This document shows, one piece after another, positions 8,527 to 62,000 of a stretch of DNA of 64,000 nucleotides (positions are counted from its first letter, which is position 1; every line of letters begins with the position of its first letter). Source of the DNA: Tetrahymena thermophila SB210 (taxonomy: Eukaryota; Ciliophora; Oligohymenophorea; Hymenostomatida; Tetrahymenidae); NCBI RefSeq assembly GCF_000189635.1, contig NW_002476013.1:186001-250000 (forward strand), read 5' to 3'. A program made the translations under genes and the position numbers. The notes under the pieces were generated by a model, which was not told the origin of the DNA, made no database searches, and saw nothing but the letters and a program-made list of their open reading frames with translations.

Positions 8527-11500
8527 ATGAATTCAGAAGATTTAGGAAAAATAATTGTAAATGCATAGGATGAAATTCAAAGTTTAAAAAAGAAGCTCGA
8601 CTTTATAGCCACTGCAAAAAATACTCAGCAAGGTTTTTTTTATTATCATTTAGCAGATTTATCATTAATTTACTCAATATAGCTAAAAAATATGATTAAA
8701 TATATTTATTTTGTGGTAATTAATTAAGGAAATGGAAATGTAGCAGAAGCTTAAGATATATAAAACATTTATCAAAGATTAACCTATACAATAAAAAAAT
8801 TTGAGAACTCAATATAAACCAACGTTGATAGGCTTCTCACTCACGTAATTATGCTATGCAATCTTTTTTTATATTAGCAATTTTATATCGTTAAAATTTT
8901 ATTAAAAAAATTATGTTTTTTGACTTTAGAATATGGCTCGACCTGATTCAGTCCCTTAGAAATTTCCTTCTATTAACAAAACAATAGATTCATAGTAGCA
9001 CTTTTAATCGACAGCGAAAAATCAAAGCGTTTTGGCAAATACAAATAACTTTTAGAGCTTAAATGAAAATAGTGAATATCAACCTTTTTATTTACCTTAA
9101 CAGAAACGATACCAAAAGTAGCCTTTAGGTTAAGGTAGTAATTCAGTAATTAAGCAAAATTAAAATGTAAAAAAACTAAAAAATATTTTAATATAAAATA
9201 ATTATTTAAAATTTTAAATAGAAGTCTTTTGAATATAGTAGAAATTAAAAGGATTTCTCCTTTTAGAAAGTAGCTGATAAAAGCTTTGAAATAGGAAGGA
9301 GTTATCTGAATAAAAATGTTATGGATTTACCCAGATAAAAAAGTATGAGTATGCATAATACAAATGCTATAACTACTGCTAAGGACAAATCTTCATACTA
9401 AAAGCAAAAGCTAAAGCTTGGAAGATTTTCAAAACCAGCCTCAGTTTTACCTCCTGAGATTAGAAACAACCCTTTTGCTGATGCTGTTGCAATTACAGAA
9501 TCTGAAATATATAATGGTTTATACAATCTTATAAACAAAGGAGTCGTTCCTAAAGATGTAGATATTATGCCAGCTTTTTCGAGAGGTGTTCCACCACTTA
9601 TAAATAAACCAATGATGTAATTTATATATTTACCATAAATGAGATAAAATATATTCACAAATTAAAAGAATAATTTTCAATTTTAATAAAATTATAATTT
9701 GATATTATTTAATTAACTAAAAAATTTAGCTATTAGAAATATATTTATTACATTATATAAATAGTTTTCTTTATAATTTATTATTAATAGAATGCATGAG
9801 TTTAAGGAAAAGCTGATAAAATAAGAAATTAATATAGAACCTAAAATAGATTTAATAAATATAAAATTAGATGTTTAGGCAATTCAGCCAAAGCCTAAAT
9901 AAGATCAAAAAGTGTAAGAATAAGCCCAAGCATCTTAAAACTCTTTTTAAAGAAAGAGCTTTAAATTTAAATAATTTGTTCCTTCAAATAAGCTACTTGA
10001 CTAAAGTGCAAATCATGATTTAAATTAATCAAAAAGATAGGATGATTTTGAACTTACATTAAAAGAGACCTAAGCAAAAACATATCCTGAAGTTCTTGAT
10101 GCGTATTCTTTGCATCATTTAATTGTAAGAAAGGCAAAAGTTTTAGAAGAGACTCCTGAATATGCCTCTTATAAGCGTATTTATTAACTTTAATGGGGAT
10201 AAATAAATTAGCTACTCAAGGAAATTGAATAAATTGCTAAGTAATTTGATTTTCCTATGTTTTATCTAGATGGTAAAAAAGTAGATTATTGCTTATAATA
10301 TTTTTCTTATTGCTAACCATTTTTAAAATTAAATTTAGCTTGCTTAATTAAGCGAAAAAATAACCAAACCTACTCTAGAAGAGCTATTAAATTGTATAGT
10401 TAATTAAGATATGGTTGATGAAGTAATTTTTATTTTTCAAAGCTTAGTAAAAAATTTACAATTTCTAAAATAATTAAAAGTTTGTCAAGTTGCCTAAGAG
10501 AAAGTATAAAGGAGAAAAAGGAAAATTACTTGCTGTTGTAAAGATTTAGTCAATAATTAGAATGTTTCTTTAATACAGAGAATACAAAAGGATAAAATAA
10601 ACTATACAAATAGTTAAGATAATATAAAAGTATGCTAGGTTATATCTTCATAAAAAACAAACTAAAAAATTGATAAAGCTAAAAAATGAACAGCTATTTG
10701 ATAAATTTAAGCAAACATTACATTAGTTTAAATTAGATTGGCCAGAAATAAAACTCAAAAAGAGGTTCGAAATTCATATTAACTCTTTCTCAGTTGATGT
10801 AAATGATCAAATACTTATTTATTTACAATTTAAAAAAATTTAACAATTTTATAAATAAAAAGTTTTGTTTGAAATTAATTTAATCCTCAACAACCTTTGT
10901 AAATTATATTTAAAATTATCTATAAAATAAATTAGGAGTTGAAGAGACTAACGATGGATAAATAGTTACAAAGAGAGAATATTTAAATAACAAGAATATT
11001 CCAAATAAAAGATCCTATGGTTTCTATTATTTATGTCTGCCCCTTTGGAGTAAGTGACGACATTACAAATTATTATTACAAAGTAATTAGATGATATTAA
11101 TTAGAAAGAAAATTTTAACTTTATTTGTAATAATTAATTATTTTTTTATTAAAATTTAATATTCAAAATTAGATTCTTGAATTAGGAGATGTATAAAACT
11201 TTAAAGATAGATTGTATTTCATTAAACCTGAAAATTGTGACACATTCCCTTTTCACTTTTCCCTTTCTAAAAAATTGTTATACTCTCCTTAAGCACTAAA
11301 AAGAATCAAAAAGTTAATTAAAGGAAAATAAGGCTACATCGTTCCAGGATATCCTTCGAATGATGACATAAAACTTGCCACCGAACTTAATATACCAATT
11401 ATGGGAGGAGACCCTTAAATTTCTTTTGTTAATTCAACAAAATCTGCAGCAAGGAGAATATTCCATTCTTGTAAAATAGATGTTCCTCCTGGAGCATTTG

Positions 11501-13037
11501 AAATTTATGATGAAACCGAATTCATAAATACTCTAACAGTACTAATAGCAAATAATCCAGAAATAAGCACGTGGGTACTTAAAATTGATGATGAGTTCTA
11601 AGGAAGAGGTTTAGCTTATTACAATGTTGATTCTATAAACCAATTATCGGACTTGCTAAAATAATACTCTGAGGTAATTAATTAATTAACTATAAATTAA
11701 TCCTTATTTTAAGATAGATTAGTTTATTAATGTTTTTGATAATAAGATAAATATTAATTATTTAACCATTTAAAAGGTTACTGAAGAAATCATATAAAAA
11801 ATAAAGTAAATAGTAAGTAAAACTTTAGCTTCAAAAGTAAAAATTGCAATGCCTACTCTTTACAAAGACTACAAAGAATATTTGTCTTGCTTTTTAAGAA
11901 GAGGAGGAATAATTGAAGCCTACCCTGTTTTATTGAATAGAACTGTTATTTCTTCTCCTTCTTTATCATTTTTTATAGAACCAAGTGGTGAAGTTAGTTT
12001 AATTACTGCTTATGATAAAATTCAAGGGAGCTTATTTATAAATATAGGTATGTATTTCTTTAATTAACAAATAAAAATTCTAAAAATATTTTATTTTAAA
12101 GGTTGCTCCTTTCCATAAAAGTCGATTACATCTAACATAAATCTAACAAATTTGTGTTCTGAAATAGGCTCTAAATTGTATGAAAAAGGTAAATAAATAA
12201 ATAACTAAAAAATTAATAATTTAAAATAATTAATTAATAAAAAGGTGTTTTTGGTTATGTAACTGCTGATTTCATAGTATATGGAGATACAATACAAGGT
12301 ATAGGCTTAGATTGTTATATGAATAATTACTAAGCATCTTTCTTTTATTTTGACTATTTAATGAGAGGAAAGCTAAATAAGGAAAATGGAAAATATTTTG
12401 CAAGTTTGACAGAAAATTTGGATAATTATTAATCCCTATCTGTTTTGGGTAATTTTATAAAATTTCAATTTTTTATAAAAATTTTTTTTTTTTTGAATGA
12501 AGAAACAAGCAAACTTGAAGAGAGAACATATTTTTATTGCCCATTCGTTAATCATCCTGGACTTTAAAATGTTAAGATTAAAAATTTCTTCTAAATGTGT
12601 AGATTTGAAGCTATATAATTTGATCTTGAGAAGAAATATGGGGCTACATTTTTATTAGTTGATATACTCTAAGCTGGTGGTTTGGGGGTTTTGACTATTG
12701 GTAAATAATATTTTGTTTTTAGAGCTTTAATAACTAAAAATATCATATAAAAAAGGCGATGATTATAAAACTGCACTTAAACTTATGAATTTATCCCTTA
12801 ATTTCTTAATGAAATAAGCTGGAAGTGTTAGTAAGAGCTACTCTGATGCTTATGGATAATCAAGGTAATTAAATTTGTTTGAAACTCTAATTAAGCTTAC
12901 AATAATTATTTAAAAAAAGAACTGATTGCATTAGCATTGTAGATGTTATTAGCAGAATCAGAATAATGACAAAAAAAATAGAAAAAGAAAATTTATACAA
13001 TTTAAGCACAAAAATAAATTATCAATCTCAAAAGTGA
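8527..13037 (+). CDS. IQCH: IQCH homologue (IQ motif-containing protein H)
   Basis: Fifteen exons: 8527-8632, 8729-8844, 8930-9166, 9222-9616, 9791-10280, 10339-10422, 10481-10798, 10936-11082, 11173-11673, 11777-12047, 12102-12188, 12245-12448, 12503-12700, 12756-12864, 12920-13037. Total 1,127 codons, all phases agreeing (1,126 aa; animal IQCH is about 1,000). Two IQ-like calmodulin-binding stretches lie at about 495-515 and 520-540. The C-terminal half carries the conserved IQCH blocks: GDPQISFVNSTKSAARRIF, VPPGAFEIYDE, the ATP-grasp-like LKIDDEFQGRGLAYY, and later NHPGL with MCRFEAIQFDLE. In animals IQCH is a ciliary/sperm protein linked to calmodulin. A ciliary role here is inference. 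The N-terminal 260 residues are low-complexity and Gln/Ser-rich. Confidence 0.85.
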
Positions 13038-16055: not shown

Positions 16056-16880
16056 TTAAAAACCAAATTGCTTAAAAGGTATTTTTTTTATTTTTAAATT
16101 GATATAATTATTTGATATTCATACTTATTATTGGCTACAACTATGAAATATATTATTTTATTTGTAGAATTTAAACATAAATATTCATATTTTTTCTTAT
16201 TAAAAATGATAATAATACAATTTTAAACATAAAAAATGATTTATTATAATCAACTATTTATTAAAATAATAATTTGGATTTAATATTTTAAACAATAATT
16301 TTTTTATTGATTAAGTAATTTTTCTGTATATTTTATATAATTGATTAAAAACCAAATTTCTTTATAAGTTATTTTTTTATTTTTAAATTTATATAATTAT
16401 TTGATATTTATACTTATTATTAGCTATAACTAAGAAATATATTATTTTATTTGTAGAATTAAAACATAAATATTCATATTTTTTGTTATTAAAAAAGATA
16501 ATCAAACAATTTTAAACATAAAAAATGATTTAATTATAAGTATAAAAAACAAAATTCTATCAAATATTTTTTTATTGATTGAGTAATTTTTCTGTATATT
16601 TTAATTGATTAAAAACCATTTTTGCTTTATTAGTTTTTTTTTTTTAAATTTATTTAATTATTTGATATTCATACTTATTATTGGCTACAACTTGAAATAT
16701 AATATTTTATTTGTAGAACTAAAACATAAATATTCATAATTTTTGTTATTAAAAAAGATAATCTAACAATTTTAAACATAAAAAATGATTTATTATAAGT
16801 ATAAAAATCAAAATTCTATCAACTATTTTTAAAATAAAAATGTGGATTTAATATTTTAAACAGTAATTTTTTCAATATTT
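16021..16880. repeat. Three-copy tandem repeat, unit about 260-290 bp
   Basis: Copies begin near 16021, 16310 and 16574. Landmarks recur in the same order: TGATTAAAAACC at 16053, 16342 and 16606; TTTGATATT at 16111, 16400 and 16661; then ACATAAATATTCAT and TTTTAAACATAAAAAATGAT. Spacing is about 289 bp, then about 262 bp. The copies have diverged by substitutions and small indels. The first copy overlaps the last codons and stop of paralogue A, so the repeat was apparently seeded from the 3' end of that gene. No coding capacity is seen. Confidence 0.85.
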
Positions 16881-20744: not shown

Positions 20745-23700
20745 TCATTTATATAATTTAATTCTTAGAAATTATACATGTTGAAAGATTTTTCTCAATT
20801 TTTAATGTAGAATTGGTAATAATTAAAATTATACACATTTTTAGTTGCATTTTTATAAATTTTTTGCAAAAATTATCAAAATAAATAATTTACTTAAATA
20901 ATAATATATTAAAAGCTTTAATTAAATAAAAACAATTTCATTTTCAAGTTAAATTTGTAAGTCTAAGCATCTTAAGGAGCTTATTTTTTGTAATTTAATT
21001 GATAGAGTTTCTCCTATATTAAATTTAAAAAATATATAAATTATTGTAAATTTGATTAAAAATTAAATAATTTACTTAGCAATATTTAAAGCAATTAATT
21101 ATTTGCTATTTTTAAGATTCGAGAACATTTAATTTTTACCAAAATCAGTTAATTTATTTGCTCTTTTATAAAAAAATTTTATATTATATTTTATTTAAAA
21201 ATATAATTTTACCCTATAAATAACTATAAAATCTAAAGACTTTTACTTAACCCCAAGTTAAACCCTAAACTAAATCCTCCTTTATCTTCAATATTGTTTC
21301 CACTAAATTTAAATGTAAATTAATCAAAACATACTATTAATATCTATTACTGTAAATGTAGTTTTAGTTGTATAAGATTAGAGTGATTTCCTAAGTTTAA
21401 AGCTAATTATTCTATTCCTTAATTACCTAATTAAACGTTTCTTAAAAATTGATATATTTTTAATTATTTTAAATTTTAGAATAGAAATTTCTACTTTAAA
21501 TCTAAGGAAAGATATTGCAAATTTTGTATTTTTTTTATGTTAGAAGTCAGTCCTATTACACCTTAGTCTCCAATTTTATTTTATCTTATTAGTAATAAAT
21601 TATATTAAATAAAATATATAAAAATTTATTACTCTAAGTTTAAATTCAATTCATTTAGATTTTAGCATAAACTTAAATAATCAGCTAAATGGCAAACTCC
21701 AACATATTCAATAGTATTGTAGCTAATTTTTTATTAAGTGATTAATTAAATTGATTGATTAAAATTTAAATATAGTATAAAGTATTATAAGTTCTGCTAG
21801 CATTATTGATTTTATAACAATTACTTAAACTGCTATGCCAAAATAAAATAATTTTTAAAATTTACAATTAATTTGCCAAAAATTTAAAATAATTTCAAAT
21901 TAAGGAATATATTTAAAGAATTTATTTCATTTAAATTTTAAATTATCTAGTCTAACTCAAACTTATGCATTTTTATAAAAAGATAAATTTACTTAAGTCT
22001 AAGGGTCAGTTTTTTTAGGTTAAATAATTAACTCAATCCTTTTCCTATTTTAGCAGCAATCTAAGAATCGATTTAACAACTACTAAGCTCATTAAATAAT
22101 TTAATTATATTTATAAATAAGTTTTTTTTAATAAATAGATAATTACTTCAATTCAAGTTGCAACTTATTTAGATTTTTGTTTGATGCAAGACAGGAAATT
22201 AATTCAAAATTATTTTCATCAGACAATAATTTATTAAACCTTAAATTTTAAATTTATTTTCAACAATTTAAGTAAAATAAATAAAAAATATACCCAAAAT
22301 CGAGGATTAAACTTTACATATTCTCACATTAACCAATACAGTTCCCCAATTAAGAAACTCCTGCATTTGTAAAATAGTTATATCTATTAAAAAATATTAA
22401 GATTATTTAATTTGATAATTTAGAAACTACTGAAAAAAAAAAAAAAAATAAATAAATCAACTTTTAAAAGTATAAAATGAATTTTCTAAATAAACAAATA
22501 ATCTAAAGTAAATCAGTAAGAAATAAAAGGCTCTATTTAATTTATTAAAAATAATGATAAATTTATTGATACCTTAAAAATAAATGTAGCACAACCAATG
22601 ATTTTATTTATTTTATTCCTTCACCTAAATTTTTAATGCCTTCATCTCTGATTTAATTAAAGCTAATTAAAAATTTGTAATAAAACACTTGGTTACATTT
22701 TTATTGAATTAATATACTTTATTTCTAATACTAAAATTTTAAGTTGCTTAAGCTAAGCCAGGTTTATACCTATATCAGTAGCTCCTTAGCATCCTATTTA
22801 GTTGTGACTTTACCATAAAAAAAATTCAATTTTTAAAATAATTTTGTATCAACTTAAATAATTATGATGTTAATATTTTTAAATTAAAATAAAAATTAAT
22901 TTACTCAAGATCTATTGTTAGCGAGGTTAAGTTTTTATTTTAGCAAATACCTTAAAAAATATCAGCTATTCCTTTTTCTGAAATCCCTGCTCCTCTTTTA
23001 AAAAAATAAAAATCTCAAAGATTTAAAGATTAGAAATAAAATCTAAATACCTTAATAATAATTTTAGAGTTTAAATATTTTGACAATTTTCTAAACTTTT
23101 TACTAAGCATAAGGCTCCATTATTTGAAATCAAATGATTGCTAAAGAAATAAAATGAAATATCCACTAAAAGTATTATTGAAATCATTTAATATTACGAT
23201 AAGTTTAAATCTAAATCTGTAAGATTATACATAAATTATAAGTTAAATCCTAACTCTAAAATTCCATAGCTTTGTGAACAATTTAAACTAATAAAATTTT
23301 TTATTAAATAAGTTATTAATATCTTTTTAAAACTAAAAAATTTGCAAATTACTTTAAATCAAGCTGTAAATTTTTTAACAAGGTTAATTTTTGTATACCT
23401 GTCAGAAATAGTTTGATATTTTGATCATCTATAGCAGAAGGACTGATATATAAATATATCATATTTTAAGAAAGAAAGAAATATCATTAAAACTAACTTT
23501 ATTTGGATTGAAAGATATGTCAGCTTAGAGCACTTTTCAAAACAATCTACTAGGTTTTGCATTTCTTTATCATTAAAAGTTGCTTAACTTAATTAATAAA
23601 ACTCATTTAGAATATTTGACAGAATTTAAATTTATTAAAGTACCTTAGTTTCAAAGTTATAGATTCTAAATTAGAAATTTAACAACTAGCAAACTATTAA

Positions 23701-23909
23701 CATTAGAAAGTTGATATTTGATACTAATTCAATTTAAGTTAAATATACTTCACTAACGGAGTTCACTGCTAACATAGTTTAACAAGTCTACTTTTTAAGC
23801 TTTAAATATACTAAAAAGTTATGAAGTTTAATTTTGGATTTTGAAATATTAATACCTATTTAATATAAATATCTTTTATTATTTCTGATAAAAGAATTTT
23901 TTACCACAT
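20745..23909 (-). CDS. Leucine-rich-repeat protein, about one repeat per exon
   Basis: No long frame exists, but about 17 short exons, spaced about 145 bp apart, each encode one LRR unit close to N-x-I-x-D-x-G-x3-L-x3-L-x4-N-L-x2-L-x-L-x-L. Clear units lie near 23503-23585, 23352-23440, 23196-23280, 23052-23150, 22907-22995, 22713-22808, 22573-22665, 22298-22372, 22148-22235, 21990-22068, 21640-21710, 21498-21575, 21335-21410, 21215-21295, 21068-21150 and 20950-21015. Examples: EKGIADIFQGICQNKNLTSL and GVIGLTSNIKKIQNLQYLSL. Most junctions I checked join in phase 2, so units could be gained or lost without changing frame. The last exon appears to end at TGA 20747-20745. The start (ATG 23909) and the first two exons are uncertain. 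LRR proteins of this kind bind other proteins; the partner is unknown. Confidence 0.7.
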
Positions 23910-24709
23910 AAAATTAAAAATAATTGAAAGGAGCTTTAATGATCAAATATTTTTTACTTTTATATAAAAACTATCTTAATATTTGAAGTGATTTTATTTC
24001 ATTATTTTTACATCTTAACGATAGATAGATTAAATAAAAAGATATTTCTCTCAGTAAAAATTATTATAATTAAAAAAAACTTTATTAAATTATTTAGTTA
24101 AATTAAATATCACAAAATTTTATAATTATAATTTTAATTATTAAAATATAAGTTAAAATTAAAAGTATCATAGTTCTTATCAAATATTTTTACTTTTAAA
24201 TAATTTAGTATTTGAAGCATTTCATAAAATCATTTTCTCTCTTAAATATAAATTTAAATAAAAATATAATTCTACATGTAAAAATGATAGCAATTAAAAT
24301 TGAAAAAAACTAAAAAACTTTAATAATTTATAAATCTAGCTTTTAACATTATAAAATAATTTTTTTATCATATTTACATTTTAGTAACTAAAAATTAGTT
24401 TAAATTTAATTGAACTCATTAATTTTTAAGATAGAGAGACGTCAATTAATAAAATTTATATAATTTATCCAAAGTAAACTTTAAGAAAAGATAAAAACTC
24501 AAAAAAGCATACTAAAAAATATTATTTTAAAAATACTCTTCGATTTGCTATTTTTAAGCTTAATAAATTTTCTTAGCATTCTTTATTTGATTGTCGTACA
24601 ATTAGAGTATATTATTAAAATAAACACTCTCTTAATATTAATCAAGTAATTATTATCATTTATAATATTTTTATTTAAAATTAATTTATAAAGTTAAAAA
24701 TATTTTTGC
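23910..24709. other. AT-rich spacer between two minus-strand genes
   Basis: Upstream region of the LRR gene and 3' flank of the gene ending at 24710. No supported frame and no obvious repeat. Confidence 0.5.
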
Positions 24710-40165: not shown

Positions 40166-41769
40166 TTTTATTATAATCAAGCCAATATCTTCAAACGTAA
40201 ATATTAGAGTTTCTTGATATTAAATTTTCTTTATTTTGATTGGTAAGGATATTTTAAAAATAAAATATCTAGATATATCTAAAATTATGACATTATTGTT
40301 TACTCATAATGAATGAGAAATAAGTAAAAATAAATATAGATCTAAATATTTTAAAAATATAATATCGAAATTAAATTTACAAACCTAATAAATAAGCATA
40401 TGGTAATTAAAAATTTATTAAATTGACTAAATTTTCAATTAATTTTTCAATTTTTGAGAAATATATTTTATTGGTGGGTCACATTGTAAAACTAGATAGT
40501 CATTTTTAACATGATGCCTACCCTAAAAATAATACTACTCAAAAGAAAAAAAAGCTTTAAATAAGATATAAAGTTATATTCAATAAGGGAATCGCTTAAA
40601 TATAAATATTTAAAATCATAGAGTATGCTTTTAAGAACATAATCCATAAAAGAATTATTATTGGCTTTAAATTATTTATTAATTAATTAATTGAACTTTT
40701 TATTTTTCATATAATAAATTTAAGAGTGTATACTAAATTATTAAGAATATTTTTTTAGTAATTGTTACAGTAGATTCTTTTTATTTATTTAATTTATTTT
40801 AAGATGCGCTGAGTTTAAATCCATTGATATTTTTAGTAAAAGAATTAGAAAACAAAAAAAAATTTCAATATGTATTTATATTGATAAGCAATATGTTTTT
40901 AATGATTTTATTAAAATAATTTACATTCATTACCTATTTATTATTAAGTTAAAAATAACTTTTAAATTAAATTATGTATTTAGACTGAAGAAATTATCAT
41001 ATTAAACTCAAACAATTTTCTCATTTTTTTTTTAAATGTGTTGATGATAAAAAATACAAAAAAAAAATTAAATATTCGAGATATAAGTGTAATCTTTTTA
41101 ATTTAAAATTCACTCGATGCCTTAGCTAATTTTATTTATATAGCTCATATATTTATAAAATGTTTAAAATTTATAGAAATAAATTTAAGCTTAAATAGTT
41201 TAAGTTTTAGACAGAATATCTGAATTCTAATTGAGTTTATTCTATAGAGAATTATTAAATTTTTTTAAAGATATTTAGAAAATTTAGAATTAAAAATATA
41301 AATTCGTGTTTTTTCCTTTAAACTGATGATCCTCAATTAAGATAAATTAATTAAATAGGATATTAAATAAATATCTTCAATAGTACGAATAAGCTAATAA
41401 ACAAAAAAAATCAAATCAGCTGTTTTCATAAAAATAAATTCTAAAAAGTTAAAAAAATATCATACGAAAAAATTATATAAATAAGCTTTTATGGATAAAT
41501 AAATAATGTAATAGCTTGAGATATATTTTCGCATTAAAAGTGTCTCTATTTTTTGTTAGAATATTATTTAAAAAATCATACATTATATTGTAATTATTAT
41601 GATAACTACCTGATTGATTAATTAATAAATAAATAGATAAAAAGGTATCTTTAAACAAAAAAGGTAAGAACTTTATACAAATATTTATATATAAAAAATA
41701 CTTTACAAAAAAGAATTATAATTAATAAAGACTCAAAAGATATTTTATTAAGTATAGGTTGTTGGTAAT
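40166..41769. other. AT-rich spacer
   Basis: 1.6 kb between the zinc-finger gene and the kinase, which are divergently transcribed. No supported frame. It probably holds the two promoters. Confidence 0.55.
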
Positions 41770-43838
41770 ATGATAAGCTTTGAGGATTAATACATTATTT
41801 CAGAATAAAAATTAGGAGAAGGAGGCTTTGGAACTGTTTATTAAGGTATAGATGTCATAAACTAGAAATTTGTAGCTTGTAAAGCTGTCTCAATAGCAAA
41901 GCTTGCTTAAATACCTAAGCTTGTGGAGTTATTTGCTCAAGAAATAGCTTTACAGTAAAAGTTAAAGTCTCCTTTCACTGTTGAGCTCTATAAAGTTTAT
42001 AAATGCTAAGATCATTTCTATTTGATACTTGAATTTTGCGAAGGCGGAGATCTATCGTAATATGTTAAAAAAAATGGACCTTTACCAGAGCAAAAAGCAA
42101 TAGGTTTTCTTATGCAGATATTAGCAGGTTTCAGAGTATTGCATTAAAACTCCATCATCCACAGAGAGTAAATTTTTCTAAATTTAAAGCTATTAACCAA
42201 AAAATAATAATTTAGTTTAAAGCCTGCAAATATATTGATGAGTGGCAATGTTTTGAAGATTGCAGATTTTGGAGCAGCCAGAACGGTTGATTTAGAAAAT
42301 TAAGCTGCTACTAAGATAGGAACTCCTCTTTTCTTAGCACCTGAAATCCAAGAAGATAAAGAATATGGTTTTGAAGTAGATATCTATAGGTAAATATCAT
42401 TTAATTAGTTAATTACGATTTACACTTTAATAGAAATTACTATTAAAAATGCTACAAAAAAAAACAAAATTTTAATAAAATTACATTTAATAAAGAACTT
42501 TTCTGAATCCAACTTTCTAAGAATGGATGCACTTATTATTTTTTAGATATCTTTTTTCAATTTGATATTTCAAAACATAATAATTTTTTTTAAAACTTCA
42601 TTACAAAATAAAGACTTAGTTTGAAAATTAGATACAAATGAATTTTTAAATAATATATTTATAAATTAATATATTTAGTTTAGGAGTTTTACTCTATTTC
42701 ATGCTCTTTAATGATTACCCATTTGGTGGGTCTGGCATTTAGCTCTATAATAATATGAAGAGTGAAAAGATAGATTTCAAGAAAAATGGAGTCGTTATTT
42801 CAAGCTAGTTAAAGGACTTGATAGTGAGACTTCTCAAGTATGATAGAGAGCAAAGAATTACTTGGGCTTAAATTTACTAACACCCAATTGTTAGTAAAAA
42901 CTTAAAAAATGATAACATATCTGCTGAAATCATTTTAGCTCCTTAAGCCTCAGACATTAAAATGTATTAGGACCCAAAGTTTAGTAATAAAAAAGGTTCT
43001 TTAGATAAAAAACCATAAGGTGGTTAGTTTATTCCAGAATAAAAATAACCTCAAAAGGTAGATCCTTATGTAGAAGCTTAAAAACGTTAGGTAATTGAAG
43101 AGAAAAAAAAGCTTGCTTTAGAAATAGTTTCAGCTATTTAAAAATATGTGCATAAGAAAAATGTAAATTTTTGAATTTTTCTTTTTAAGTTTATTTATTT
43201 ATATTTTATTTATCTATTGTCTTTATTTCTTACAGGTTTATGGAGTATTGTTGGTTTTAGCTATTTCGTTTTCAAAATTGTAAAAGTTAGGAATTAATTA
43301 TCAAATTCCTGCTTATTTAGTACAAAAAAAACTCAGAGCACTGAATCAAGAAATGCTTTAAGCTATTGTTCAGAAAAAGAATATTTTTAATTTAAGCTGC
43401 TTTAACATTTTTTGCAAAACTGAGTATTACACAAAAATTGAAGACTTGGTTAAAGGAGACTCTGTATAAATTGAAAATTACATGAGTTCCACTTAACAAG
43501 CTGCGCTTTAAAGTATGGCAAAGCTAGGCTTAAATAATTAAAGTTTAAGAGATGAAATTAATTAAATAGAATTAAGCCCTCGTTTTAATGAGCATTTAAT
43601 TGGATCACTAATGAGTTATGCAGAGGGCTTAAAAAAGATAATGTTTTAAGCTTAAGATAAAGATGTTAAACTAGCCCTTTTCTTCAATATTGCACTTGCT
43701 TATGAATCTTGCTGTATAGAAAAACTCTTTAAGGATTAAAACTTCGATTTTGAAAAGCACAAAGTACAATTATTATAGACTTCTCCTGATTAATTTGGAA
43801 AAATATTAGAACAAAAATGTGCTCAAATTTTTGATTGA
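41770..43838 (+). CDS. ULK/ATG1-like serine/threonine protein kinase
   Basis: Four exons: 41770-42167, 42216-42389, 42679-43162, 43236-43838. Total 553 codons (552 aa). The kinase domain opens the protein: glycine loop GEGGFGTVY (16-24), catalytic Lys38 in ACKAV, HRDLKPANIL with Asp133 (split by intron 1), DFG at 150-152, and the activation segment GTPLFLAPEI. All key residues are present, so it should be active. A linker rich in Gln and Lys follows at about 290-350. The C-terminal 200 residues are mostly helical, like the MIT-type tail of ULK/ATG1 kinases. In other eukaryotes ULK/ATG1 starts autophagy, and ULK3/Fused-type members act in signalling or cilia. Which branch this belongs to is not settled from sequence by eye. 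Confidence 0.83.
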
Positions 43839-47444: not shown

Positions 47445-50400
47445 ATGTCTTAGAGCGATTTTAAAGAGGAGTAATTAGACTCTAAAAAGAGCAGTAAGCA
47501 AGTTGCTGATAAAAAGGAATTGGTTTTAGGTATCAATTTTGATCCTGATAAAGAGGAATACGATGGAAACTACTCTGATTCTGGAGAAGAATCCGAATCA
47601 GAATAAGCATAAACAAATTATGACGATGATATGGCAGAAGATGAGTAACTAGTGCCAGAAGATGGTGTTTCAACAAAATAAAATAATAATAAAAAAGGAA
47701 ACGGTGATAAAAAAACTAAGAAAGTAAAAAAAGCTCCTGCAAAATAGGCATCTTAGGCTAAAAGAAAGCCACAAACTTTGGTTATGAATGTTGCTGGTTT
47801 GTTATTTTTTGATTTCTTTTAGCTTTTTTTCCTTTAAAATTATATAGTTAGATTTTAACTAACCTACTACCTACCTACATACATACATACCAAGCTATTT
47901 CTTATTCATTAAGTATAAATAAATCACACAAGCAAAAATCTTTAAAAATATGTTAAAAAAATATTGAATTTAAGCATTCGCTGTCCTTTTCCCATTTAAA
48001 CATAAAATGAATTTTAAAAAAGCATTATTTTAGTCATTTTAAAAGTAAAGCAGGAAAAATAAGCTCAAATTGTAAAGTTAATCACTCCTCAGTTGCAGAT
48101 TTTAAAAATTTTTTATAAGAAATGAAATAAAATTTCTGCACAAATAGAGCAAATTTAACAGATATTGAATAATAAATGAGTAGCAGGTGTAGTATTAATG
48201 AGAGTATTAGCTAATATTATGATTTAAATTACAATTATTAACAAATATAGATACATAGTATCCTGTTGTTAAATTCGTGGGCAAAAAGATTTTCAAATGG
48301 AAACTTTGTTATGATGCAGAAAACACTGATTGCGATATTACTTGGACTGATAACGCTGTTTAACCAGAATAGCTAGGAAAAATGCAGCCCCATTAAAAAA
48401 TTAATCACTTTCCTGGCATGTTTGTGCTAGCTAGAAAAAACCACTTAGCTAGAAATCTAAAAAAAATGAAGAAACAGTTCCCTGATCACTATAAATTTTT
48501 CCCTTAAACTTGGTTATTGCCTGCTGAATACAACGAACTTCGTACTGAATTCGATAAGATCTCTAAAGGAAAATGCAAAACATTTATTGTTAAACCAGTA
48601 ACTAACTAATTATTTGATGATTTATTTTTGAAATGACAAAAAAAATAAGCAAATGGAATTATTCGTTTATTATTAATTCTCAAAGAGTAGATTTACAATT
48701 TTATTAAAATTAAAAGCAACAACAGCTTTTATAAAATTTGACCCAATTCTTTGGACATAAAAATTTTAAATAAACAAATTGTTTCATTTAATATGATAGA
48801 ATTAAGACTGTTAGAAATTTCATCAATATTTTAAATGCAAATTAAATAAACAGATATTTGCTTTTAGATGAATAGAATATTAGAAATATATTTTTGCAGT
48901 TTAAATATTTATATTTTCTTTATAACAGGAAGCAAGTTGCTAGGGAAGAGGTATCTTTTTGACTAGGAATTTAGATGATTTAAACAGTACCGATCATTAT
49001 GTAGTTTAAAGGTAAAATAAATAATTATTTTCTCTATTAAAAATAATATTATTTTTTATAGATATTTACACAAGCCCTATCTCATAGATGGATTAAAGTT
49101 TGATTTTAGAATTTACGTTTTGCTTGCAGCTTGTGATCCTATGAGAATATATATTTTTAAAGAAGGATTAGCTCGTTTAGCTACAGAAGAATATGAAGCT
49201 CCACATCGTGATAATTTAGATAATCTTTGCATGCACTTAACTAACTATGCCATCAATAAAGATAACCCTAATTTTGAATTTAATGAAGATGAAAATTAAA
49301 TGGATGTAGGTCACAAAAGGTCTTTGACTTCAGTAATGGAGGTAAACCTTTTTAATCAAAAAAGCTCAAAAAATATTAAACCAAAAAAATCTCATAGCAA
49401 TAAAAATTTAATCTAATTTTTTATCGAAAAAGCTTCTTAAAAATTAAGGACATGATATTTAAAAGTTATGGGATCAAATTAAGGACATCATAATAAAAAC
49501 AATAATTAGTGCTTAGCCTACTCTAAGTCATCACTATAAATCTTGTCAACCAGATAACTACATGAATAATATGTGTTTTGAAATATTGGGATTTGATGTT
49601 TTCTTAGACGCCCATTTAAAACCTTGGCTATTAGAAATTAATCATACTCCTAGTTTTACTACAGATACTCCTCTTGATAGTTTGATCAAAAAGAATTGTA
49701 TCCGTGATGCATTAACATTGATGAATTCGACTGTTAAAGCTAGAAACGAAATTGTTTCACAAAGAAAGGAATAACTTTAAAAAAGAGTCCTAACTGGTAA
49801 AAAATAAAAATTAACAGCTGAAGAAAAAGCAGCTGAAATAAAAAAAGCTATGTAAAAGAGGGATGAGTACGAATCAAAGAATTTAGGAAACTATGAAAAG
49901 GTTTATCCTCTAGAAGTAAATAAATTTATTTAATTAACCCTAAGTTAATATTCTAAAAATAAATAAAAAGCCTGATGTTGAAGATATTTACATTGCTTTC
50001 CAACAACACTCTCAATAGCTTTATGAAAACTGGACGGGAGCAAGTAATTAATATAAATAGATGATTTTGGATTTAAATTTATTTTGATAATCTAAAAAGA
50101 TATTAGAAGAGTCTCAAAGAAAGACAGTTCAATAGGAGGTAATACTATCTAAGGAACAACAGCGAATAACAGTGTCAAAGGAGTACCAAATTAACAAAGA
50201 AATTCGATAAATGATAAAAATAAACCAAACTTACCTGCAGCTAAGGTACCAATTAAGCCAGTTGCAGCCACCAAATAAGTGATTCCTAAAGTTGTCTAAA
50301 ATAAGACTCAAGTTCCCACCTTCTCTTCAAGCTCGAAAATTAGATCAAATGAAAATGTAACAAAATTTTTAATTTGAACATAAAAATGATTAGTACAGGT

Positions 50401-56187: not shown

Positions 56188-56803
56188 TCATTCACTAAAT
56201 TGCTTAATGCAAAAAATTTAATTCAAAATTATTATAGCTATTTAAAATTTAAAATAAATTTGTAATAAGAATGTAACATATATAGAGTATAATTGTATTG
56301 TTATTAAAATACCTTAATTTATAAATTCAAAATACCATAACTTATAAATTCAAAATAATTTAAAATTGATTTACTTTCATTTTTTCTCAAAATTTTTTTT
56401 TTTTTCACATTACTCCTCAGATATGAAAGAGCTGGGTAACTAAAATTTTATTTAAAAACGGAAATTTTTTAAATTTTAATTTGAATTAACTTATTGTTAT
56501 GTAAAAATATTAAGTAATTTTAGAAATATAATGAAAAAACTTGTTTCCATAAGATTTCTTTTAAATATTTGATAAACTTTTAAAATACTATAAATAGTTA
56601 ATATATTAATTATTATGTAAATTAAATATTACAAAAATTTAAATATGTATCTTTCTCGAATGAAATAACTCAATTTAAAAGAAAACAACAAAAATTTTGT
56701 AATATAATCCTTAAATATTTTTTAGTAAGACGATGAATAATTAAAAAATCAAATAACTTAACAAAATTTAATAATTATATATAAAAAACAATTAAAAATA
56801 AAT
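56188..56803. other. Spacer with 23-bp tandem duplication
   Basis: 0.6 kb between two plus-strand genes. It holds two tandem 23-bp units (56306-56328 and 56329-56351) that differ at two positions. The rest is AT-rich 3' and 5' flank. Confidence 0.65.
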
Positions 56804-58195
56804 ATGATAGGGTTTAGAGCTAGTATAATATATTTTAAAGAGGATCCATATTTCTTAGAAGTTTAGGAAGATAGTATTTATTATTATTAGGATGGTATGC
56901 TTATTGTAGATAAGGAGAGCGGATTAGTTGTTTAATGTGGGTAATACAATGAGCTGGTTGAAGAGTATCCTGATATAGATATTGATGAACAGTTTAAAGG
57001 TCAACTTATTATGCCAGGATTTATTGACTGTCATACTCACTATCCTCAGACAGAAATGATTTGTACTTTTTCTACAGATTTATTTTCTTGGTTGAACACA
57101 TACACATTTCCTACAGAAGATTAATTCAAAGACTTATCATATGCAAGGAAAATTAGCTAATTCTACTTAAACCAGTTATTGAAAAATGGAACCACAACAG
57201 CTTTAGTGATGGCAACTATCCATCCTGAGTCTGTTTAAGCCCTTTTTGAAGAGGCTACAAAGCTAAATATGAGGATAATAACTGGCAAAACTTTAATGGA
57301 TAGGAATGCTCCAGAGTTTCTTTGCGACACTCCAGAATCAGCCTATTCTGATTCTCTTAACCTTATAGAAAAATACCACAATAAAGGGAGATGCTTGTAT
57401 TCAATAACTCCAAGGTTCTCACCTACATCAACGAGGGAGTAGCTTCAAGCTGCTGGAAAGCTAAAGCTGAGATACCCTGATGTTTATATGCATACTCATT
57501 TAAGCGAAAGTATAGAATAAGTAGAGTTTGCTTAGTCTTTGTATCCTGAAAATCAATCAGATATTTAAATCTTTGAGTAGTCAAATTTAGTTGATAAGAA
57601 ATCAGTGTTTGCTCATTGCGTAATGTGCCCAAAAAGTGAATCAGATTAATTAAGCAGACTTTAATGTGGGGTTGCTTTCTGTCCTACTAGCAATTTTTGT
57701 TATGGAGCTGGTATATTTCCATATCACGAATTCGTCTAAAAAAATGTAAATTTTGGGATTGGCTCAGACGTAGGAGGCACTACTGATTTCAGTTTACTTA
57801 AGACCTTGTAAGATGCATATAAGGTAGTAATGATTAGTTAGAAAGATACAAAAAACAGAAAACCAATGTCATCTTTTGAAGGGTTTTACAGGGCTACACT
57901 TGGAGGATGCAAGGCTCTTCACTTAGAGGATAAGCTTGGAAAATTTGAGCCAGGATATGAGGCTGACTTTGTAGTGTTAGACTGGTTTACAAATGACATA
58001 TAAAAACTAAGACATGAAACTATTGAAAAGAGATCTGGAAAAGCCTAAAGGCATTTGAACAGCTGTAAATCTGATTCCTAAAGTGATAAATTCATGCTAG
58101 CATAAAGATTATTTGGAATTATGATGATGGGCGATTAGCACAGCATCAAAGCAACCTATATTTCTGGAAAGTAATGTTATCTAAGAAAAAACTGA
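56804..58195 (+). CDS. GDA: Guanine deaminase
   Basis: Single intronless exon, 463 aa, ATG 56804-56806, TGA 58193-58195. It converts guanine to xanthine and ammonia in purine salvage and breakdown. Amidohydrolase metal and active-site motifs are all present: PGFIDCHTHYPQTE (His77, His79), MHTHLSES (His230, His232), FAHCV (His271) and GSDVGG (Asp322). The order and spacing are those of the guanine deaminase family, and the length fits animal and bacterial enzymes (about 450 aa). No signal peptide, so cytosolic. The coding DNA is clearly richer in G and C than its neighbours, and there are no introns, which may reflect strong expression or older transfer. Gln codons include many TAA/TAG, so it is fully adapted to the ciliate code. 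Confidence 0.93.
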
Positions 58196-59004
58196 AATCC
58201 GCTTTAATTATTTTACTGATTAATTTTGAATTAATAATCAATAAATTAATAAATTAACATAAAATGAACAAGATGAAATTATCACCAAATTAATATTAAT
58301 AATCCTTTATAAATTATATTTAAGACTCTTTTAAAAAGTACATAACTATTTACATGGAGATATTTTTAAGAATAAAAAAACTTATTAAAATTATGAATTT
58401 TTAAAATTAAAAAATTAGCAATATTTATTAATAGTAAAATTTTAAATATTAATTTATCTAATTATGAAAACAATGAATAATATTGTAGTTTGTTATAAAA
58501 GAAACAAACAATTAAAAGAAATAAATAAAAATTAAAGTATTTTGCTTAAGTATAAATATTTGTTACATTCATTACATTTAATTTTTTTTATTATAAAACA
58601 AATAGACAATTTATTAATAAATGATACTGGTAAATTTATTATTTTTTTTTAGCTTAGGCAATCAAAAGTATAATTCAAAGAATATTAGATATATGAGTAT
58701 GAAAAGGGCAAGTGAGAACAATTTAATATATATATTTATGAATGAATAATTTGGATGCTAAAAATTTTTTGTATTGTAATATGCAAATAACTCAAATATA
58801 TGGGAAAAAATGTAAAGAACCTCACACTTAATTTCAAGTTATTTGTATATTGTTTTTTAGAATGCATGTAGATATATAGATGTATGTATTTATTAACATT
58901 TGCAAAACTTTCCTTATATTTTAAGATTGAAGTTAATCAAATTTTAATTTTTAAGTGTATTAATTATTAAGTAGAAAGAAAGAAACTATCAATTGTATTG
59001 AATT
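58196..59004. other. AT-rich spacer
   Basis: 0.8 kb between guanine deaminase and the channel gene. It contains short ATAT and GTAGATAT-type simple sequence near 58720 and 58866. No supported frame. Confidence 0.6.
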
Positions 59005-62000
59005 ATGTCTGTTTCTTAAGAAATATAATCAAAAGATTTTTTAATTTCTCCGAAAGTAACTTCCCTAAGATAGGGTGATTCTACGAGGCGGAAAATGTTT
59101 TAAGTTGGAACTAACTCATTTTAAATGCTACAAAAGCAGGGGGATGATAATAATCCTTCTTAGTACATTTACTCAGATGATCGTTATTAATAAGAGCAAG
59201 ATTCTGTAAATTAGACAAACAATTAAATGAAACTAACTTCTTAGAGCATTATGAATAGGTCTGATTTTAAATTTTAATTGAATCGACCATCTTTATTATC
59301 TGTTGAAAGAGCTATTGATTAAGGACATTTATCACCAAAAGGATTTTTTAGTCCTAAAGAGACAATGAGAAGTTATAGTAATATTCTTTCTTCTTCGTAG
59401 TAGAATATAACTTCAGAATATGGCTTTAGAAATAGTGGAAACATTTTTATGAAATCAAAAACAGTAAATCAATTTAAGCGATCTTAGACGAGGAAGGAAG
59501 AATTTTTCGAGTAATCCCCTAAAAAAAAGCTTCGAAAATCAAAGACTTAGAAAATTTGTGATGATACAAAAACTGAGAATATGTAAAAATCAGATAGTAA
59601 AGAGGATATATACTTACCAAACTTCACGGCTTAACAAAAATCAAATGAGTAAAGTTAAAAGTAAAGTGATGATTTAAAACCAGAAAAGGGTTTGAATTAA
59701 AATTGGAAGAAGAGAGGTATCTCAATTATTACACAGGTATAAAAATTTTTAACGAGACTATAAAATCTTTCTTTTATAAGAAGATACGATAATCAGACCT
59801 TACATTAATTTTAAGTCATTAATGATTTATCTGCTTTTTATGATGAAAATAGAAAAAAGAAATCATACTAAAGAAAGGGTATAGTTTAATCAATATTAAG
59901 TCTTCTCAAATAGGGCATAAATACAAATAAAATGATATAAAAATTAACTAACCTAATTGATAAAAAATTTAAAGTTTTTGAGCCTGATTAGCTTATAATT
60001 ATCATCTGGATGCTTATCACCATAAATTCATCGTTCTTCCTTCTATTTCTTAATCCTCTTTTTATGGCTTTTTAAGATGAGTAATTATTTTATTTATTAA
60101 TTAATTATATTTCTTTTTAAGAATTTAGAAAATTCAAGTGGTCAATATTTTACCTTTATTTAAGTAATCTAAAAAATATTTGGGTCTTCTCTACCAAAAT
60201 CTTGATTAAGCAAGAAAGCACTTTTAGATTACAAAATTAAATTTATATTATCGTTAAATTAATATTTATTAATCTATAAATATTTCTAATTAATTTAAAA
60301 AGGATGATTGATTACAAATATAATAAATCACATATTATTTTTTTTTGTATGAGCACTCTGCCATTGATTGTAATGTTTGTGGATGTTATAATAAGACTCA
60401 ATACAGGGTATTATAAGAGAGGTTTAATTGTTGTTAAAAGGTGGAACATCGCCAAGCATTATATAAAGCACAAGCTATGGCTAGATATTTTTTTAATTTT
60501 CTTGTTTGCTATTTATGATAATACTAACATAAATATTATGATGTTGATAACTATACTTTTGATTGGAAAGATTACATAAATAATTAAAGAATTAGAAGAC
60601 GCAGTTACACTAGATAAAAGATAAATGGCTTATTATTAACTTGTAAAGTTAAGCATATTAGTACTTTTTATTGGACATTTCTGTGGTTGCATTTTTTGGT
60701 CAGTGGGAGTTCAAACAAAAGCACACTTAGATTAATCATGGGTAGCGAATAAGTTTGATAATAAAAGTTTCTATGAGAAATACATAAGTAGTCTCTACTG
60801 GGCCACCGTTACGATGCTTACAGTAGGCTATGGAGATATTGTTCCTTTAAATAAGATAGAAAAGTAATGTGTTATCATTATTATGATATTTTCATGTGGT
60901 ATTTATGCCTATTTTTTAAATTAAATTGGTTTTCTAATTGAAGAAATTACATATGAAGATAAGGAGTTCAAATAAATCTACTCTTAAGTTTCTCTTTTTC
61001 TTTAAAAAAGAAACTTAGATGTAAAGCTTTAAACTGAGGTATTTTATTCAACTTCTAATAAAATCTTTCTAATTTTATCAAAAATTTCAAATCTTAGTAA
61101 AAATTTAAAGCTTTATTGGTATTGATTTATTTTATTAAAGATGTATCAAATATTTAGTCTTTTGTGTATTAAGAAAGGATATACTTATTTTTTTGTTTTA
61201 ATAGGTAAAAAGATATTATTAATATCTGCATTATGAAAAGCACAACTACACAGTAAATGGAGAAGAGCTGCTTTAACCATTAAAATAATCGTTAAAATTG
61301 AAGGTTATGTCTAATATAAACTAATAACTTTTGATAAAATATAAACTTTTTAGGAATTAGTTTTCTGAGGCATTTTTGCAATAATTAGCTCTTAAAATGA
61401 AAGAATCATAGTTTAATTCAGATGATAAAGTCTGGGATTCATCTGACTTACCTTTGAACAATAAGATATTTTTTGTTATTAGAGGCTAAATAATATAAAA
61501 AGTCAATGATTAGTTTTTAGTAAAAACAATAGAGGAAGGAGGGTTTTTCAATGAAAAATGTTTTATGATTGATGAATCTCCAAATATTTCTTTTGTTTCT
61601 ACTTGCTTGTCATCTATAGTCTACTTAGATAAAAAAGATTTCTTAGAAGTTATTAAAAATTTTCCTGTTGATTACGAGAGATACTGCAAGTTACGTGATG
61701 GCTCAAAATTTTCTAATTTTTTTAACCTTGATTCAAAATGCGAAACTTGCAATCTTTTTACTCACTGTTTCAATAACTGTCCTCAAGTGAATATTTTCAT
61801 TAATAAGGCTAAAATAGTCTACAGCTTAACTCAATGGACTCCATAAAAAGATAGAATTTTTTAACAGAGAAGATAATATTAAGATTATCTTTAACAGAGT
61901 CAAATAAGCAACAATCTTTAAAATAATAGTTAAAAGAAAGATATGCGATATAAAAGAGGAAATAATGCAAGAAGTTAGCACTATTCTATATTAGAAAGTG

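Follow-up and report, generated by a model that had tools for sequence, protein, structure and literature searches.

Does the stretch between positions 20,745 and 23,909 of this 64,000-nucleotide window (the whole stretch of Tetrahymena thermophila SB210 DNA that was analysed) encode a leucine-rich repeat (LRR) protein split over an array of very short exons and, if so, what sort of gene is it? The original prediction, made from the letters of the DNA, had proposed such a gene, built from about 17 repeated phase 2 modules, and had named a recognition protein as one possible use. We conclude, with a probability of roughly 93%, that the locus is a protein-coding macronuclear gene of the 90-bp-exon LRR family, in which each exon would encode one repeat of a predicted solenoid and the product probably serves in binding or recognition.

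We take the window to be a macronuclear chromosome of T. thermophila, an assignment drawn from the sequence, because the telomerase (TERT) gene, translated with TAA and TAG as glutamine, yields a protein with long stretches of identity to the PDB 6d6v chain, presumably a T. thermophila entry, and because contig C398 opens with CCCCAA (C4A2) telomere repeats. The TERT and LRR frames both run through TAA and TAG as glutamine.

Results

A 16-exon model of the locus

Thirteen segments of the minus strand are exactly 90 nt long, are bordered by AG and GT and are free of TGA when read in phase 2, which means here that an exon opens with the third base of a codon interrupted by the intron before it. 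The 13 aligned units share the motif xNxIxxxGxxxLxxxLxxxxNLxxLxLxL. Together with one 93-bp, one 87-bp and one probable 71-bp terminal exon, they make up a 16-exon LRR array that extends on the minus strand from 23587 to 20943 and is open under the ciliate code (Table 1). The 15 introns of the model are all GT–AG and have a median length of 56 bp; 12 of them measure 48-65 bp and the remaining three 97, 189 and 270 bp. The GC content in the model is 0.25 for exons and 0.125 for introns, and the 13 exact 90-bp exons fall in runs of eight and five.

This architecture bears out an LRR gene of short phase 2 exons, which had been described with no mention of its strand. The 15 firm exons, with one short terminal exon and one probable upstream exon, come close to the predicted number, and the limit of about 95 nt per exon is true of the model. 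The expectation that most junctions would be phase 2 agrees with all 15 introns, a count to be read in the light of phase 2 having been presupposed while the model was built; the independent support for the phase is the LRR register. Near-regular spacing of about 145 bp was partly borne out, as start-to-start distances are 138-157 bp in 12 of the 15 steps and depart from it in the others (187, 279 and 360 bp). Open reading frame callers are indeed blind here, as the minus strand read under table 11 has no stop-free run above 52 aa.

Table 1. Modeled and probable features of the LRR locus
Feature	Position	Strand	Length	Remarks
Probable upstream LRR exon	23644..23762	-		ISNLESITLKL before GTACTT; phase 2, then 56-bp intron
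LRR exon 1 of firm array	23498..23587	-	90 bp	both junctions phase 2, AG/GT, donor GTTAGT, unit QATFNDKEMQNLVDCFEKCSKLTYLSIQI
LRR exon 2	23353..23442	-	90 bp	lowest leave-one-out score, 4.1 bits
LRR exon 3	23198..23287	-	90 bp	
LRR exon 4	23051..23140	-	90 bp	
LRR exon 5	22905..22994	-	90 bp	
LRR exon 6	22718..22807	-	90 bp	preceding intron 97 bp
LRR exon 7	22573..22662	-	90 bp	
LRR exon 8	22294..22383	-	90 bp	preceding intron 189 bp
LRR exon 9	22147..22239	-	93 bp	one codon more, AG/GT, phase 2, 30-aa LRR unit
LRR exon 10	21993..22082	-	90 bp	
Intron (preferred model)	21723..21992	-	270 bp	without convincing LRR unit
LRR exon 11	21633..21722	-	90 bp	
LRR exon 12	21495..21584	-	90 bp	
LRR exon 13	21351..21440	-	90 bp	
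LRR exon 14	21213..21302	-	90 bp	
LRR exon 15	21076..21162	-	87 bp	one codon fewer, AG/GT, phase 2, unit ANKLTDFGKNQMFSNLKNSKQLIALNIA
Probable terminal exon (inferred)	20943..21013	-	71 bp	AG acceptor; phase 2 frame ends ...NLT*, stop TGA

The exon number is uncertain at the 5' end and around the 270-bp and 189-bp introns. A 29-mer of the probable upstream exon scores -6.3 bits, within the top 0.2% of background, and inspection of 23644-23950 (minus strand) by eye gave no clear canonical-splice solution for the 5' limit of that exon, the start codon or the first exon. The 270-bp stretch could alternatively be coding: the 450 nt from 22082 to 21633 are open in frame.

Seven introns have lengths that are multiples of three, and six of these lack an in-frame TGA. 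Over the whole model 12 of the 15 introns lack one, which is unremarkable with a single stop codon in AT-rich DNA. Four successive introns (270, 48, 54 and 48 bp; 21992-21303, minus strand) are in frame and TGA-free, and the stretch from 22147 to 20879 on the same strand reads open even without splicing, such that intron retention there would be invisible to the frame. Spurious long frames also arise under table 6, e.g. frames of 338 and 423 aa that cross introns.

The long introns were searched with the unit profile for remains of lost modules (22572-22384, 21992-21723 and 22904-22808, each with 60-nt flanks). Their best 29-mers reach -12.2, -3.8 and -8.5 bits, respectively, versus at least 4.1 for accepted units, and those of 22572-22384 and 22904-22808 sit partly or wholly in the adjoining exon. 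Although the -3.8 29-mer of the 270-bp intron ranks within the top 0.2% of background, a scan of about 300 positions is expected to give up to 0.6 such matches by chance. Two LRR-like runs picked out by eye in the same 270-bp stretch score -31.4 and -37.5 in the hand-set register; the second rises from -37.5 to -3.8 when moved by one residue. None of these candidates was supported.

Exon length and unit scores against background

On the minus strand between 20745 and 23909, 15 phase-2-open AG..GT segments measure 90 bp, against 0 to 6 (mean 2.5) at the other lengths from 70 to 120. A Markov null gave a mean of 3.4 and a maximum of 12 at 90 bp, and none of 500 runs reached 15. The 15 segments comprise the 13 LRR exons and two non-LRR segments, at 22429 and 21793; since these two share the borders, borders alone can occur by chance. 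The stricter AG..GTA pattern is found 13 times at 90 bp, in 12 LRR exons and the segment at 22429, the exon at 23587 escaping this count through its GTT donor. Other lengths yield 0 to 4 AG..GTA segments, and the null has a mean of 1.3-1.4 and a maximum of 5-7 (500 runs each).

Scored against a profile from which each was left out in turn, the 13 units obtain 4.1 to 32.2 bits. Ten of them beat every one of 76,025 stop-free background 29-mers from the rest of the window, the highest of which reaches 13.8 bits, and the other three (4.1, 7.7 and 11.3) lie within the top 1e-4 of background. The 93-bp exon scores 22.0 bits on the unit profile once its first residue is left off; the 87-bp exon was left out of the scoring owing to its length. 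The units differ from one another in their DNA, and no repeat family with the period of the unit was found.

Outside the locus, the window holds no second LRR array and four isolated unit-like matches above 8 bits. The best of these is GNCIGDQGTQDLVQLLENIQFERFKFEFK, at 1891-1977 on the plus strand (13.8 bits), which lacks AG/GT borders at 90 bp and lies in a frame without a Pfam match. In very AT-rich DNA at 16298-16830, a 260-bp segment is duplicated in tandem, its two copies having 90% matches. Among 20 neighbouring frames scanned, six match Pfam (11095-11736, 41614-43171, 49328-49972, 56573-58192, 59002-61122), the matches being to protein kinase (two frames), tubulin-tyrosine ligase, amidohydrolase, an ion channel and an IQCH-like ATP-grasp protein; these neighbours are ordinary gene content.

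The same module elsewhere in the genome

We searched the genome (101.0 Mb in 445 contigs), in which the locus lies about 207-210 kb into its 684-kb contig. One LRR unit as the query gave 208 candidates, of which the best 150 were scored; one of these is the locus itself and 149 are non-self matches. The 20 best non-self matches all measure exactly 90 bp from AG to GT, and none does when the same AG/GT spacing is shifted by up to 20 bases in either direction (40 offsets). Because some are near copies of one another, the 20 are not all independent, and many carry the recurrent sequence GDEGxxGLGSGLxKCTNLSNLTLDL.

Whole-protein and Pfam searches gave a different picture. The 28 LRR loci recovered with the whole protein have 23 AG..GTA segments open in this phase at 90 bp versus 11-43 at other lengths from 80 to 100, which is no excess (L005 and L030 were excluded, both being the window's own locus). 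The 30 loci of the Pfam search have 41 at 90 bp versus 12-40 elsewhere, a slight excess to which a single locus, L037, contributes 12. When two of the Pfam loci were examined unit by unit, L037, an independent locus, proved to have 12 LRR exons, each exactly 90 bp long, and L050 none. Both searches probably pick up LRR genes with a long unbroken frame by preference, such as L007, L008 and L009 of the same genome, whose repeats of about 31 residues are similar.

The DNA matches listed include no close copy of the locus: the best of 16 non-self ones is 71% identical over 155 bp and none exceeds about 210 bp, in a search that skips common words. At the protein level, identity is 28-32% for the ten strongest non-self matches and 23-47% across all of them.

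Predicted fold of the repeats

Among solved structures, the 13-unit profile best matches 5irm (E 6.6e-12), which we take to be NOD2, and it also matches the DRC5 chain 8j07_5 (E 0.005). The spliced protein gives weak matches to solved LRR chains, the best being 9y6s_8O (E 3e-7), followed by 9e5c_0u (E 5.4e-6), both named merely leucine-rich repeat protein, and by the DRC5/TCTE1 chains 8glv_Ez (E 8.1e-6) and 9fqr_Qx (E 9.9e-6). Its Pfam LRR_6 match (20.5 bits, E 4.5e-4) falls under the curated cut-off of 23.4, and the translated part contains neither NACHT nor any further Pfam domain. We nevertheless regard the assignment to LRRs of the RI/NLR type as firm, because the 13-unit profile reaches E 6.6e-12. 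LRR proteins of the NLR/DRC5 type (5irm, 8j07_5, 9fqr_Qx) have a similar motif, NxIxxxGxxxLxxxLxxxxxLxxLxL; unlike them, the locus has 30 residues per repeat, with one repeat per 90-bp exon. Animal NLR genes probably also have LRR exons of repeat size.

Discussion

A known exon family and the place of this gene

According to Xiong et al. 2019 (PLoS Biol 17:e3000294, PMC6564038), thousands of Tetrahymena LRR genes contain arrays of exactly 90-bp exons, and more than 98% of the family's introns are in phase 2. In T. thermophila, 1,500 of 1,874 LRR genes are described as having at least one such exon, with 1 to 51 per gene, and the structure is ascribed to exon shuffling via ectopic recombination (PMC6564038). 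The paper divides the family into three age groups. The older group II combines introns near 56 bp with a lack of intragenic DNA repeats, and the young, repeat-masked group III has introns that peak near 257 bp and units that repeat in DNA (PMC6564038). Expression is reported for many members of the family, and purifying selection for most of those with 90-bp exons (PMC6564038).

The locus resembles this family in its species, its runs of exactly 90-bp phase 2 exons, its LRR units and its introns, most of which are near 56 bp. Two proxies are in line with the published traits of group II: no repeat at the unit period was found, and none of the 16 non-self DNA matches listed exceeds about 210 bp. 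It shares the 90-bp phase 2 module with group III and differs from it in its median intron of 56 bp, against about 257 bp, and in that no such DNA repeats were found. What sets it apart from the published account is one module each of 93 and 87 bp and three longer introns (97, 189 and 270 bp); no other departure was found in the sections of PMC6564038 consulted. To judge from its sequence, the gene is most likely a member of the older group II, and we infer that many of the 20 best genome matches belong to group III. The architecture is already described in T. thermophila (PMC6564038), and the locus adds one worked example.

Competing readings of the array

That the array reflects non-coding or chance periodicity in AT-rich DNA, where a code with one stop leaves most frames open, is almost certainly wrong. 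Such DNA does yield spurious table 6 frames through introns (338 and 423 aa), and the null supplies 3.4 segments of 90 bp and up to 12, but no run in 500 matches the 15 observed, the unit scores stand outside the background, and the same 90-bp structure recurs at other genome loci, in L037 and the 20 best unit matches. A decaying pseudogene of the same family, with modules lost, ends eroded and three introns lengthened (97, 189 and 270 bp), is a more serious contender that we still consider quite unlikely. It would account for the two units that are off by one codon (93 and 87 bp), for the three unusually long introns and for a clear start codon and complete first exon not having been found. 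However, the splice borders are intact and the frames open in 15 LRR exons, the odd exon lengths are still multiples of three, and the long introns hold no convincing lost unit, with exons and introns keeping their distinct GC contents (0.25 vs 0.125).

The array could also encode a ciliary or structural LRR protein resembling DRC5, the LRR subunit of the dynein regulatory complex, instead of a recognition protein, a reading that we rate as improbable. The weak matches to 8glv_Ez and 9fqr_Qx by the spliced protein and to 8j07_5 by the unit profile speak for it. Yet this similarity is generic to RI-type LRRs, as 9y6s_8O and 9e5c_0u score better than the two DRC5/TCTE1 chains; the unit profile fits 5irm far better than 8j07_5; and the species is credited with 1,500 genes having such exons (PMC6564038).

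How the gene may work and vary

For the preferred reading, a protein-coding gene of the 90-bp-exon family, we propose that each 90-bp exon between phase 2 introns, having 29 whole codons and split junction codons, would specify one 30-residue repeat of the RI/NLR type, and that splicing would join at least 15 such repeats in one solenoid. The anatomy is read from the sequence, and splicing and the solenoid are predicted from it. Unequal crossing over, or the skipping of a 90-, 93- or 87-bp module, may alter the number of repeats while keeping the frame, because the modules share the same phase and have lengths in multiples of three. That symmetric modules can be gained or lost without frame damage had been put forward in the original prediction, correctly, and it matches the genus-wide account, including its variation in exon number (PMC6564038).

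The product is most likely a putative intracellular protein-binding scaffold or recognition protein. Bacterial recognition and neutralisation of digestion products have been proposed, as hypotheses, for the family (PMC6564038). Judged by the titles listed, a thin literature search found no later functional study of these 90-bp-exon LRR genes. A putative housekeeping or structural scaffold is a tentative proposal, at somewhat below even odds, and putative recognition of food or foreign material is rather doubtful. A putative cytosolic binding role is likeliest, because the translated part has no other Pfam domain and most of the family's genes lack a transmembrane domain (PMC6564038). It is a long shot that in-frame exon skipping or intron retention, combined with germline shuffling, would produce solenoids of varied length, the roughly 1,500 genes then forming a recognition repertoire diversified by splicing.

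The locus illustrates that a reading of the raw sequence can recover a real and unusual gene architecture that standard-code open reading frame callers miss. The wider puzzle is why about 1,500 genes whose LRR exons share one length and one phase are maintained in a single ciliate.
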